Shown: positions 58,124 through 63,188 of the stretch, piece after piece | How positions within the stretch are numbered: the first letter of the stretch is position 1 | Layout: each line of letters opens with the position of its first letter | Assembly (NCBI GenBank): GCA_002839505.1 | Contig: PGYE01000001.1 | Location: forward strand, 1-64,000 | Reading direction: 5' to 3' | From: Candidatus Peregrinibacteria bacterium HGW-Peregrinibacteria-1 | GTDB taxonomy: Bacteria > Patescibacteriota > Gracilibacteria > UBA1369 > LOWO2-01-FULL-3 | DNA: 64,000 nucleotides | Program-made: the position numbers and the translations under genes | Notes under the pieces: model-generated | Told to the model about the DNA's origin: nothing | What the model saw: the letters and a program-made list of their open reading frames with translations, nothing else | Database searches by the model: none

Positions 58124-58804
58124 ATGTATCACCCTGAAACAATAAAAATTTTTAAAAAGCTCACAAATGATTTAGGAAATCTAAAAGGATACACGATCTT
58201 TAAAATTGGTGAAATTTCTATAAATGTTACAGGGAGAGATGGTCTAGGGGGATTAATTGAAGAATGGTTTGGAGTCTGGGCAAAACAAACAGGATTTCAA
58301 ATTAAAAACCCAAAAGAAGAAGGAAAAAGCCAAGAGTTCCCAGATTTTTACATTGGAAAAGATAATTCCCTTCTAGAAATAAAAACATTTGATGCAGATA
58401 GATCACCAAACTTCGATTTAGCAAATTTCGAATCCTACTGCGATTCCTTAGCGAAAACACCAGAACGTATTGATTCAGACTATCTAATCTTTGCATATAA
58501 ACTTAACGGCAAAAATCTTTCTATCACAAATATATGGCTAAAAAAAATATGGGAAATCTCTTGTCCATCTGAAAGATACCCTTTGAAAACGCAAGTAAAA
58601 CGTAATGTGATTTATAATATTCGACCAGCAACTTGGTATTCTAAAAACCCACAATACAAAGTTTTTAATAATAAAGAAGAATTTATAGAAGCCCTATTTG
58701 AAACACAAAGATTATATAGGGGGGAAAGCAATAAAGACCTCTACTTATCTAAGGTAAAATCTCTAAAAGAGGTTTTACCAATCTTAACGAAACGTCTTTT
58801 ATAA
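58124..58804 (+). CDS. Type II restriction endonuclease (PD-(D/E)xK)
   Basis: A 226-residue protein beginning MYHPETIK. An upstream in-frame start lies inside the C gene and is less likely. The catalytic core is EFPDFYIG...LLEIKTFD: Asp, ten-residue spacing, Glu-x-Lys. DGLGGLIEEWFGVWAK and YPLKTQVKRNVIYNIRP suggest the NgoBV family (PF09564), whose members cut GGNNCC-type sites; that identification is from memory of motifs and tentative. Its 3' end overlaps the convergent methyltransferase by 56 bp. Confidence 0.75.
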   Translation: MYHPETIKIFKKLTNDLGNLKGYTIFKIGEISINVTGRDGLGGLIEEWFGVWAKQTGFQIKNPKEEGKSQEFPDFYIGKDNSLLEIKTFDADRSPNFDLANFESYCDSLAKTPERIDSDYLIFAYKLNGKNLSITNIWLKKIWEISCPSERYPLKTQVKRNVIYNIRPATWYSKNPQYKVFNNKEEFIEALFETQRLYRGESNKDLYLSKVKSLKEVLPILTKRLL

Positions 58805-60038
58805 CAGGGACAACAACCGTATTCCCAATTAAGTCATATAAATTTTTATGAGAGATATTTGATTTATACCATTCCGGAAAACCAAATAAACGTAAACATT
58901 CCCTTTCGGACATTCTTCTTATTTTATTAGTATCAATCACGCCAATTCTATCTGCTTCCGTTGCAACAATTGTTGGAGCTATAGAGGTTTTCCCCAGAAT
59001 TTTATTGAATTCGAAACTTAATTTCCCCGCAACAATATTATAACCTTTTTCCTTCGTGGTATCGTGCTGTCTAACATTTCTTCCATCCTCAGTGATTACA
59101 ATATCCTTTGGATGCTCATAGCGCAGATACTTTTTTTCAACCAAATCATCAAGAATCTCTTTAAGATTTAACAAAGAAGTTTCATTATAAAAAGAATAAA
59201 TTTCCTCTAATGTTAATGGCATACCATCCATCCATTTTATTTGTTTTATTTCTGCCCACTTTTTTTTCCTCCTTTCTTTTAAAAGAATACTCATTAGATA
59301 TTTCTGCTGCTTTGTTAACGATCCTTTCAGCTCTAAATCCCAACTATGGATATTATCAATCCCTCCTCTTTTATCCTTAATTGCCTTTCCTTCCAATTCC
59401 GATGGGGAAAATAACTTTAACAGCTGTTTAGTAAATTTTGTTTCGACCGGATTTAAGCCAAATTCTTGAATATCCCCAAAGGTAGCCCTACTTGTATTAA
59501 AATCATATATATCTATTTTCTCTACTTTTGTTCCAACCATATAAATCCTCTTTCTTGATTGAGGTATACCAAAATTCTCTGCATTTAACACGTTATAACT
59601 TACTATATAGCCAAGCTCCTTTAATACATTTAAAATTGTTCTCAAGGTATTACCATTATCATGGTTAACCAAACCTTCTACATTCTCCAATAAGAAACCC
59701 ATCGGCTTCTTCTCCTTTAATATTCTTGCGACATCAAAAAATAACGTCCCCCTTGTATCATTAAATCCATGCCTTTTTCCAGCTGAACTAAATGCCTGAC
59801 AAGGAAAACCACCAAGTAGAAAATCAAAATCTGGAATCATATTAGCTTCAATTTTTGTTATATCACCAGAGACCTCATCATTTTTAAAATTATGTTTATA
59901 TATATCAACCGCATATTCCTTTATCTCTGAGGTAAATACACATTTTGTTTTCACCCCCAACTCCATACAGGCTTGTTCAAAACCAATCCTAGTACCCCCC
60001 AGACCCGCAAATAAATCTATAAATCTAATTGTCCTCAT
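58749..60038 (-). CDS. DNA (cytosine-5)-methyltransferase of the type II system
   Basis: A 429-residue C5 methylase. Motif I FIDLFAGLGGTRIGFEQA, motif IV GGFPCQAFSSAGKRHGF with the catalytic Cys, motif VI LENVEGLVNH, motif VIII QSRKRIYMVG, motif IX RMSERECLRLFGFPEWY and motif X LIGNTVVVPV are all intact. The target-recognition region (about 190-340) is long and includes a helical stretch with ERRKKKWAEIKQIKWMDGMPLT. It protects host sites from the endonuclease. The C-box 27 bp before its start predicts control by the C protein. Confidence 0.93.
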   Translation of the reverse strand: MRTIRFIDLFAGLGGTRIGFEQACMELGVKTKCVFTSEIKEYAVDIYKHNFKNDEVSGDITKIEANMIPDFDFLLGGFPCQAFSSAGKRHGFNDTRGTLFFDVARILKEKKPMGFLLENVEGLVNHDNGNTLRTILNVLKELGYIVSYNVLNAENFGIPQSRKRIYMVGTKVEKIDIYDFNTSRATFGDIQEFGLNPVETKFTKQLLKLFSPSELEGKAIKDKRGGIDNIHSWDLELKGSLTKQQKYLMSILLKERRKKKWAEIKQIKWMDGMPLTLEEIYSFYNETSLLNLKEILDDLVEKKYLRYEHPKDIVITEDGRNVRQHDTTKEKGYNIVAGKLSFEFNKILGKTSIAPTIVATEADRIGVIDTNKIRRMSERECLRLFGFPEWYKSNISHKNLYDLIGNTVVVPVIKDVSLRLVKPLLEILP

Positions 60039-60064
60039 ATTTAATCAAAGAGTAAAAATTTAGT

Positions 60065-60080
60065 GCTAACTTTAGTATAC
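60065..60080. promoter_or_regulatory. C-box upstream of the methyltransferase gene
   Basis: GCTAACTTTAGTAT, identical over 14 bp to the half-site at 57838-57851, lies 27 bp before the methyltransferase start and would let the C protein regulate (probably repress) methylation. Confidence 0.78.
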
Positions 60081-60137
60081 ATGCAATTTTGTGAATTTCA
60101 ATCAATATAATATTTAATTCCTTATTGCATTTTGGGC

Positions 60138-60195
60138 TCGGGCATTTACCCCTTTAATTCCCCTCTGCCCACCACCCAAAACAGAAAAAGAAATT
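60138..60195 (+). repeat. Direct repeat B flanking the restriction-modification module
   Basis: Partner of 57705-57764 in the same orientation. Together they enclose about 2.4 kb holding only the operators and the C, R and M genes. The rest of this gap (60196-60351) has short inverted repeats (for example GGCTTG/CAAGCC) but nothing else I recognise. Confidence 0.72.
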
Positions 60196-60339
60196 TGAAA
60201 ATTTTTAAAACAACCGGCTATCGTCGGAAAAGAAAAGGAATACATCACATAACACTGCGTATGCGGCTACGGCTTGGTCCATACCTCCGCAAGCCTTCCC
60301 CCATATTTGCCACATCACTCCATTTTCCCAAAAAAGGCC

Positions 60340-60389
60340 TTGTAAAGCATGGGTTAATTTGTATACTAGCATTACCATACAAATTAACC
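60340..60389. promoter_or_regulatory. Promoter with a perfect 13-bp dyad operator
   Basis: GGTTAATTTGTAT (60352-60364) and ATACAAATTAACC (60377-60389) are perfect inverse copies around a 12-bp centre. TTGTAA (60340-60345), 16-bp spacer and TATACT (60362-60367) form a promoter overlapped by the left arm and centre. This fits autorepression of the two-gene cassette that follows. Confidence 0.75.
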
Positions 60390-60398
60390 GACAATATT

Positions 60399-60965
60399 AT
60401 GTCTAATTACGAAACAGAAATGGTTGCAATCGCCAACATTCTCAAAGAGATTGAAAAGATTGACGAGGGCAGCAGAGAGGCAGCGCTTAAATTTATCATA
60501 GAACGGCTAGGTATAAAATCTGACAACCTGGGAACGGTCCGGACGCAGGACCAAGCAAGTGAAGTTATAGATACAAAGCCAACTACACCCAAAAAGGCAA
60601 GTGACCAAAGCATTGAGGAGTTCCTTCAAAATAAAAAACCTGCTAATAATTACCAACTCATTGCATGTATCGGATACTACCTAGAGCAAGTTAAGAATAT
60701 AAAAGAATTTGGAACCACAGAAATTAGAGAGGCGAATTCAGATGCCAGGTTGCCAGTAATTTCAAATATAACAAGAGATCTAAAGAACAGCCATTATCAG
60801 TACAATTTTGTTATGCCATCAGGAAAAGGCAAAAAGAAGCTAACTACATACGGAATAGAAGTGGCCAAAGCGCTGCCTGATCAAGAAAAAGTAAAAACAA
60901 TTATCAAAAAAAGCCGAGCTAAGATTAACAAAAAAAGCTCCAGCAAAAAGAAGATAAATAAATAG
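60399..60965 (+). CDS. Hypothetical protein, first gene of a dyad-regulated pair
   Basis: A 188-residue protein starting MSNYETEM; the frame is open further upstream but the promoter and operator lie there. The N terminus is helical (VAIANILKEIEKIDEGSREAALKFIIERLGI), then a linker, then a winged-helix-like domain: SIEEFLQNKKPANNYQLIACIGYYLEQVKNIKEFGTTEI...VISNITRDLKNSHYQYNFV, ending with a Lys-rich tail. This domain type often accompanies small accessory loci. It may be the regulator of the cassette, binding the dyad. The next gene starts 8 bp after. Confidence 0.6.
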   Translation: MSNYETEMVAIANILKEIEKIDEGSREAALKFIIERLGIKSDNLGTVRTQDQASEVIDTKPTTPKKASDQSIEEFLQNKKPANNYQLIACIGYYLEQVKNIKEFGTTEIREANSDARLPVISNITRDLKNSHYQYNFVMPSGKGKKKLTTYGIEVAKALPDQEKVKTIIKKSRAKINKKSSSKKKINK

Positions 60966-60973
60966 AATGAATA

Positions 60974-61591
60974 ATGAAAACTAATGAAGCAATAACACAA
61001 TTATGGGAAGAAGGATTCTTCGAAACTGAAAAAAGGCCAATAGAAGTCAAAAACGAACTGCAAAAGAGATACGGCATCACACCCTCTAACACTTCTTCCC
61101 ACCTAAAATCATGCAGCAGATTTCTGAGAAAGGTTAATAAAGGGTGGATACAAAAAATCAGGCACGGCATTTCCGAAAGCCGCAAAGACAGTGGTGTACA
61201 TTCATTCGATTTATACAGATTAGCACCTGAAATCAGAAAAGTCAGCAAAAAGCTTTTTGACGACAAACACTATTCACAGGCGGTCCTTGAGACCCTAAAA
61301 TATTTAAATAACTTTATCAAAAATAAATCAGGTGTGCAGGACGACGGAAAAAGTCTGATGCTAAAAGTATTCAATGAAAATAACCCTTCTCTCAAATTAA
61401 ATCAGCTTAGTACTACAAGCGAAAAGAATGAACAAGAGGGTTTCAAGTTTCTTTTTGCAGGAGCGATGGTTGGTATAAGAAATCCCAAGGCTCATGAAAA
61501 CATTATAGACAACGACCCTGTAAAGGCCATGGAAATGCTTGCCCTCGTCAATCTCCTATTTAACAAAGCAAGAACATCACATAAAGTTTGA
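60974..61591 (+). CDS. Hypoth_Ymh (TIGR02391) family protein, HEPN-like
   Basis: A 205-residue protein. Residues 1-60 look like another winged-helix or helical module ([34 protein letters not shown]). Residues about 78-200 match the Hypoth_Ymh family: [74 protein letters not shown]. The Arg169-x4-His174 arrangement in RNPKAH is the RNase motif of HEPN proteins. Many HEPN proteins are toxins or abortive-infection effectors. Pairing with the preceding gene and a dyad operator suggests a toxin-antitoxin-like unit; activity is unproven. Confidence 0.72.
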
Positions 61592-61782
61592 AATGGAATG
61601 ATACGGCAATATCTGGCTCGCTTAAGCTCGCCCATATTGACCGGCAATTCCGCTTCGCGGTATTTTATCACCGGCCAACATCAGATATACGCGGACATTG
61701 TGGCGGACATCGCTTCGCTCGTCAAAATTTACTTTCCACTTCATTGCACGTACACTTCGCCTATAGTTCACCCCCCACCCCC

Positions 61783-62142
61783 ATGCACACCAAACTAACC
61801 CCCGAAGAAGAAGCCATCATTCTTCACAAAGGCACCGAAGCGCCCTTTTCCGGCGAATACAACGACCACCGCGAAACCGGCACCTACACCTGCAAACGCT
61901 GCCGCGCCCCACTCTACAAATCCCAAGACAAATTTGACTCCCACTGTGGCTGGCCCAGCTTTGATGACGAAATCCCCGGTGCCGTCAAAAGAATCCCCGA
62001 CCCCGATGGAACCCGAACCGAAATCATTTGCAACAACTGCCAAGCCCACCTCGGCCACGTCTTCCAAGGAGAAAATTTAACCGAAAAAAACACCCGCCAC
62101 TGCGTCAACTCCCTATCCCTAAGCTTCAAAAAACATGAATAA
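61783..62142 (+). CDS. msrB: Peptide-methionine (R)-S-oxide reductase
   Basis: A 119-residue MsrB starting [17 protein letters not shown]. The structural zinc is held by CKRC and [14 protein letters not shown] is the substrate loop; the catalytic Cys lies in [11 protein letters not shown]. It repairs the R epimer of oxidised methionine. The reading frame is open upstream but that stretch is non-coding in style, so the ATG at 61783 is chosen. msrA overlaps by 8 bp. C-rich codon use returns here, marking the end of the AT-rich island. The 190-bp gap upstream holds inverted repeats such as ATATCTG/CAGATAT but no gene. Confidence 0.95.
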
Positions 62143-62599
62143 CACTCACGAAAAAGCCTATTTTGCCGGAGGATGTTTCTGGGGCGTCGAATACTACCTC
62201 CAAAACATCGAAGGCGTAATATCCACCCAAGTCGGCTACATGGGAGGCACCACCAAAAACCCCACCCATGCCGAAGTCGTTGAAGTCATTTTCGACAATT
62301 CCAAAACCAGCTTCCAAGAAATCGCCAAACTATTCTTCGAAATCCACGACCCCGGCCAAATCAATCGCCAAGGCCCCGACATCGGCGACCAATACCGCTC
62401 CGAAATATTCTACACCACCGAAAACCAAAAACTCACCTCCCAACACCTCATCGACACCCTCAGACAAACCGGCCACCAAGTCGCCACAAAACTAACCAAA
62501 GCCCCCACCTTCTGGCCCGCCGAACAATACCACCAAGAATACTACACCAAAACCGGCCACCTCCCCTACTGCCACACCCGAAAGAAAAAGTTTACCTAG
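62135..62599 (+). CDS. msrA: Peptide-methionine (S)-S-oxide reductase
   Basis: A 154-residue MsrA with the catalytic Cys in [15 protein letters not shown], then [28 protein letters not shown] and the substrate/tyrosine site [39 protein letters not shown] ends the domain. It lacks long extensions and probably resolves through a second Cys (HLPYCH) near the C terminus. The reading-frame overlap with msrB implies translational coupling; together they repair both methionine sulfoxide epimers. Confidence 0.96.
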
Positions 62600-62618
62600 C
62601 CTCCCACACATAAAAAAA

Positions 62619-62636
62619 CCCCAACCGAAGTTGGGG
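62619..62636 (-). terminator. Minus-strand terminator after msrA
   Basis: CCCCAAC-CGAA-GTTGGGG; on the minus strand the stem is followed by seven T. It is oriented to end the predicted ncRNA, 20 bp past msrA; it may also stop msrBA transcription weakly. Confidence 0.82.
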
Positions 62637-62928
62637 AACACGTCCTATCAATAAAATATTTTGTTTATCGAGAACTTTTGTTTTTGTTTTATATCCATAG
62701 CCAAAGCTTTGGTGTTATTTTCAGCCGCACCACCGGCCGTCTGAAATCTCCTATAGTAAGTCCAGAGTCCTTAGTACAAGAGCAGAACCGTGTTTAGAAC
62801 TGTCTAAACGTCATCGGATTGACAAATTTTTATCAACCCATCGCTTCAGCAAGGACAGAGAGAGAAACAATCATCACCACCTCGAGCCCCTTATAATTTG
62901 GGACAAGAGTCGTTTGTTGCAGTTGAAT

Positions 62929-63054
62929 TGTCAAAGCTTTCATGGCCGCAGATACGCAGTGCTGGAGTAGAAAAGGTAGATGAGCCGTACTGGGTAGTAC
63001 GGTGAATCGCTTTTCTGCGAAGCACCAGTAGATGCAGCCATGAAAGCTTTGACA
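62929..63054. repeat. Palindromic repeat element with 18-bp perfect arms
   Basis: TGTCAAAGCTTTCATGGC (62929-62946) and its exact inverse (63037-63054) enclose inner pairings AGAAAAG/CTTTTCT and the hairpin CCGTACT-GGGT-AGTACGG (62985-63002). Loop sequences GATRCG, TGAG-CGTAC and AGTAGATG are shared with the element at the end of pyrC. Confidence 0.82.
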
Positions 63055-63160
63055 GGATTGTTTCCCCTATCTGTCTTCGCTTTTTTTTTAAAAGATCACA
63101 GAACCTCACACCGGACTTTTTATTTTTGTTTTTGATTTCCTTAACTGAAGAAATCATACG

Positions 63161-63188
63161 ATTATATCAAAGACTAAAATAAAGTCAA
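63161..63188 (-). promoter_or_regulatory. Promoter of the predicted ncRNA
   Basis: On the minus strand TTGACT (63188-63183), 16-bp spacer, TATAAT (63166-63161), one of the strongest promoters in the window although no protein gene follows it. Confidence 0.78.

Follow-up and report, generated by a model that had tools for sequence, protein, structure and literature searches.

The minus strand of the 64,000-nt stretch of DNA analysed here (the window) was confirmed to carry, between nucleotides 62612 and 63154, a large folded non-coding RNA which is predicted to form a free-standing transcription unit. It probably (at roughly 0.6, judging from the sequence) represents a new family of structured RNAs, transcribed independently and acting in trans, that is restricted to a single bacterial order whose genomes measure ~0.7–1.5 Mb. 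The marks of a large structured free-standing non-coding RNA – promoter, terminator, covariation, conservation and the absence of a conserved open reading frame – were all found. Its homologues fall into two subtypes, A and B.

Limits, signals and layout

The features of the window copy, from 5′ to 3′, are as follows.

62612..63154, minus strand: predicted non-coding transcript of ~542 nt, both borders being predictions
63161..63188, minus strand: promoter TTGACT-16-TATAAT, 11/12 consensus, with TG before the -10 box; in the same place in homologues
63134..63155, minus strand: 5′ hairpin GATTTC..GAAATC, also present in most homologues
63117..63133, minus strand: A-rich unpaired linker AAAAACAAAAATAAAAA
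63056..63080, minus strand: helix Pa, 5′ strand (partner 62849–62872)
62930..63053, minus strand: hairpin insert of ~124 nt in the tip of Pa, private to the window copy
62849..62872, minus strand: helix Pa, 3′ strand
62843..62850, minus strand: closing helix P1, 5′ strand GCUGAAGC
62816..62839, minus strand: helix P2; 7/9 pairs with compensatory change in subtype A
62792..62809, minus strand: helix P3 GUUUAGACAGUUCUAAAC; 6/7 pairs with compensatory change and 99.4% paired in subtype A
62740..62786, minus strand: helix P4, outer UCUG/CAGA plus inner helix; in the subtype A covariation count
62711..62739, minus strand: P5 hairpin plus pseudoknot GGUG (62731–62728)/CACC (62714–62711); in the covariation counts of A and B
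62700..62707, minus strand: closing helix P1, 3′ strand GCUUUGGC
62675..62690, minus strand: second A-rich linker AAAACAAAAACAAAAG; A positions invariant across subtype A
62640..62679, minus strand: 3′ hairpin P6, from the fold and the reading of homologues; outside the covariation count
62612..62636, minus strand: intrinsic terminator CCCCAAC-UUCG-GUUGGGG-U7 (stem 62636–62619 plus T-tract)

The consensus promoter and strong terminator are those of the original prediction, and the borders which it proposed, 62619–63154, are accurate to a few bases as judged from the positions of these two signals. A near-consensus promoter is present at all 25 homologous loci with sufficient upstream sequence; nearly all homologous loci also have a GC-rich terminator. 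The anticipated length of ~535 nt holds for the window copy but is not typical of the family, the predicted RNAs of the homologues measuring 300–643 nt and mostly 300–440 nt; the private hairpin insert accounts for the length of the window copy. This insert is absent from relatives and has no second copy in its own genome at the search threshold, while a 17-mer taken from it gave only unrelated matches to the genome contigs. A retron msd or a guide RNA was considered for the long hairpin and rejected, since the hairpin is private to this copy and genes for reverse transcriptase, TnpB/IscB or Cas proteins do not occur among the conserved neighbours tested.

The minus-strand fold has a free energy of −192.4 kcal/mol, against −132 ± 6 in shuffled sequences (z −9.5), the near-perfect hairpin of ~124 nt accounting for part of this stability. 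When the isolated core of the window copy was folded with RNAfold, a program that cannot return pseudoknots, P1 to P5 were obtained. Reading of the loci of relatives revealed a constant layout of promoter, 5′ hairpin (GATTTTC..GAAAATC), A-rich linker AAAAACAAAAAC, Pa, 3′ core, second A-rich linker, 3′ hairpin and terminator. Pa is in relatives a long helix with a variable tip; the 3′ core is compact (~160 nt), with P1 closing P2, P3, P4 and an H-type pseudoknot. A motif, CGCCCTAGAAAAGC, is often present 3′ of the 5′ hairpin in subtype A (for example L003, L122 and L125, among most homologous loci) and lies within the tip of the long helix in some B copies, as would a movable conserved module; it was not seen in the window copy.

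Homologues, covariation and genome context

BLASTN comparison of the region with 60 relatives gave matches in 25, almost all from the window's own family. Two covariance models were built, R1 from subtype A and R2 from subtype B only. R1 matches 26 of the 30 genomes of the window's family; it also finds weaker, diverged copies, most of them subtype B, in some of these genomes as well as in other families. R2 has matches in 59 of the order's 88 genomes and picks up the window copy too (E=4e-12); as this model was made from B alone, A and B are homologous. The other 29 genomes of the order gave no R2 match, whether through loss, incomplete assembly or divergence. Outside the order there was no match to R1 among 288 genomes of the class or to R2 among 380 of the phylum, under stricter filters with which weak matches are lost. 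Both models give a single copy in the window's own genome, and three genomes (G003, G012 and G022) have two subtype A copies each at site 1. A coiled-coil-like protein of ~706 amino acids without a Pfam match is specified between the tandem copies of G012 (L130, 5986–8103), and a coiled-coil-like protein is likewise found between the two of G022. Taken at the sequence level, the distribution shows that two ancient paralogues, often both in one genome, occupy two syntenic sites.

The context of these sites was defined by clustering of neighbours and Pfam. Pfam supplied the identities of carA, mscS, cofE, the formyltransferase and aroE, and reading of the sequences contributed to those of pyrB, pyrC and serine dehydratase. 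At site 1, occupied by subtype A and some B, a divergent gene for a DnaQ-type exonuclease with a DinG-like helicase end lies upstream, and a convergent carA, with pyrB and pyrC behind it, lies downstream. At site 2 (subtype B), cofE or serine dehydratase (sdaA) and purN are found upstream and mscS, convergent in most cases, then aroE downstream. The position of carA-pyrB-pyrC in relatives is occupied in the window by msrA, msrB, a Hypoth_Ymh gene and one for a cytosine-5 DNA methylase. Homologues had been expected near msrA; conservation proved not to be tied to that gene, and the conserved neighbour of the window RNA is the dnaQ-like gene instead. The stretch 58749–62599, containing the C-5 cytosine DNA methylase, an unknown gene, the Hypoth_Ymh gene and msrB-msrA, resembles an inserted block.

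Covariation among the homologues shows that the predicted RNA has structure beyond chance. In subtype A (24 sequences; P2, P3, outer and inner P4, P5 and the pseudoknot) 95.1% of the cells are paired and double changes occur in 21 of 34 pairs, with 148 double-change cells against 42 when shuffled and at most 39 when slid. In the pseudoknot GGUG/CACC, pairing reaches 100% in this subtype, with one compensation, GGUU/AACC in L022. P1 was counted separately with its register set by hand; in 20 sequences 144/146 cells are paired, and double changes number 22, as compared with 6.2 when the partners are shuffled. The R2 alignment (37 sequences, nearly all B; P1, pseudoknot and a loop-loop contact included), which leans towards P1, P2, P4 and P5 because it was fitted to that model, is 90.7% paired and has double changes in 24 of 37 pairs (168 cells versus 52 shuffled and at most 46 slid). 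Model R2 itself contains neither the pseudoknot nor the loop-loop contact. The contact, between UGACYAA in the P2 loop and UURGUCA downstream, is 77% paired in the R2 alignment and is weaker than the pseudoknot, its covariation being mainly at one position.

Known RNAs and rival explanations

The whole window was compared with all 4227 families of Rfam 15 without a match at the gathering score, the RNA region giving only weak matches at chance level; when 20 loci were searched at E up to 10, no family recurred consistently over the RNA. The original prediction of a large structured RNA outside the known families is thus upheld on both counts: no housekeeping RNA was matched in Rfam, and conservation and covariation among relatives are strong. 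It had also reported no hallmarks of tmRNA, RNase P, SRP or 6S RNA, and indeed the features by which membership of these families is assigned were looked for in the window RNA and not found: the tRNA-like domain and tag reading frame of tmRNA (RF00023), a match to the RNase P model, the S domain of SRP RNA with its GNRA tetraloop and AGG/AGCAG loop, and a match to the 6S models. ARAGORN found no tRNA, tmRNA or tRNA-like domain. The bona fide tmRNA (G000:C1:189309–189727) and RNase P RNA (G000:C1:925309–925693) of the genome lie elsewhere. The window RNA resembles tmRNA in its similar length, its pseudoknot and its housekeeping-like distribution but differs in having no tRNA-like domain. Weak tmRNA/tRNA-like matches were noted near the RNA, outside its bounds, in L160 (1109–1178, plus strand) and L088 (1094–1163, plus strand).

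An early comparison with ROOL, GOLLD and OLE is apt as far as size and structure go, but does not extend to membership, the covariance models of all three giving no match to the RNA. ROOL and GOLLD usually occur in phage- or tRNA-linked contexts. They share with the window RNA family large size, complexity and a possible loop-loop contact (in subtype B), whereas that family occupies syntenic chromosomal sites and has no Rfam match. A mobile or phage RNA was rejected on the two fixed syntenic sites and on a search of IMG/VR viral contigs with the core pattern, which gave no match. OLE RNA, according to two reports (PMC9723947, PMC10898510), is ~600 nt long and works in a ribonucleoprotein complex. 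It too is a large, free-standing structured bacterial RNA; it differs in belonging to Gram-positive extremophiles and anaerobes, the window RNA being from another lineage and without a match in Rfam, and no gene for an OLE-associated protein was recognised among the tested neighbours of the window RNA family. The raiA-motif RNA (ModT), a widespread structured bacterial non-coding RNA (PMC11706538), is from different phyla, and again Rfam gave no match for the window RNA. Such an RNA was not found in the open-access literature on non-coding RNAs of the lineage.

Could one of the housekeeping RNAs – SRP RNA, tmRNA, RNase P or 6S – be present here in a form too divergent for the Rfam models? This is very improbable. 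Only SRP RNA comes seriously into question, since the order yielded none: RF00169, for the small bacterial form, detected no SRP RNA in 40 genomes, the window's (G000) included, and RF01854 gave no large SRP RNA in the window's genome in a search that also missed the B. subtilis control. The lack of SRP RNA across the order may reflect a very divergent SRP RNA or a limit of the tools. An S-domain pattern was no commoner than in the control; no S-domain motif was recognised in the RNA, and SRP families are absent even from the weak matches. The frequent occurrence of two paralogues in one genome also speaks against this reading, as do the tmRNA and RNase P RNA already accounted for. SRP RNA is undetected in the f14 genomes without a detected copy of the RNA as well, so that there is no complementary pattern. 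The notion of a small-protein mRNA or pseudogene folded by chance is hardly credible: an 88-amino-acid open reading frame does span 62891–63157 on the minus strand, but it has a counterpart in no homologue, the open reading frames of homologues mostly have the lengths found in shuffled sequences, and the covariation is of the RNA type. The early verdict of no convincing reading frame holds, and a peptide was ruled out because the frame is not conserved.

The conserved position of the RNA, adjoining dnaQ/DinG-like and carA, or cofE/sdaA/purN and mscS, could point to a cis-acting leader, attenuator or antisense element for a neighbouring gene. This is unlikely, since a promoter and a terminator are predicted for the RNA itself, most homologues lie between a divergent upstream gene and a convergent downstream one, the two neighbourhoods are unrelated and the window copy no longer adjoins carA. 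As the downstream gene is usually convergent, the RNA is a leader of neither neighbour; nor does it lie upstream of a controlled gene and in the same direction, as a riboswitch or leader would. A long base-pairing sRNA, with unpaired A-rich or conserved loop segments contacting mRNAs, possibly with an Hfq-like chaperone, is less improbable, though doubtful. The independent promoter and terminator would suit it, and the conserved unpaired segments with A-A-C/A-A-A repeats are compatible with putative ARN-type binding, but the conserved sequence is for the most part taken up by helices and the pseudoknot and does not form a single long accessible seed.

Proposed role

As a new family of trans-acting structured RNAs, these molecules would act away from their own locus, as a ribonucleoprotein scaffold or a regulator; the former is probably their role. 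The 3′ core may serve as the module for binding or function, while the A-rich linkers, being unpaired, may tether domains or bind protein.

A second partner for P1 suggests, albeit weakly, that strands may be exchanged. In 13 subtype A sequences the 5′ strand of P1 is complementary to a strand 49–97 nt upstream, with 96/104 cells paired and 5 double changes against 2.2 when shuffled (14 and 10 of 1000 shuffles being as good), figures which are no more than suggestive, as the 13 sequences were chosen for having the motif. The pairing is missing from about half of subtype A; a similar overlap, AGCAGAA/UUCUGCU, was seen by eye in B. A P1 strand with two partners would allow refolding during transcription or a two-state switch. 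An extension to a (near-)essential housekeeping ribonucleoprotein RNA with two specialised paralogues and a strand-exchange switch, in which the loop-loop contact of B may act intermolecularly to build a homo-oligomer, appears rather unlikely.

The covariance models and the anatomy given above make the RNA testable in metatranscriptomes or co-cultures of the lineage. Genomes of ~1 Mb keep little unneeded DNA, yet most of the searched members of the order retain one or two copies of this RNA, and the spread of the family over the order, with two anciently separated copies at fixed sites, suggests that it may serve a basic cellular task.
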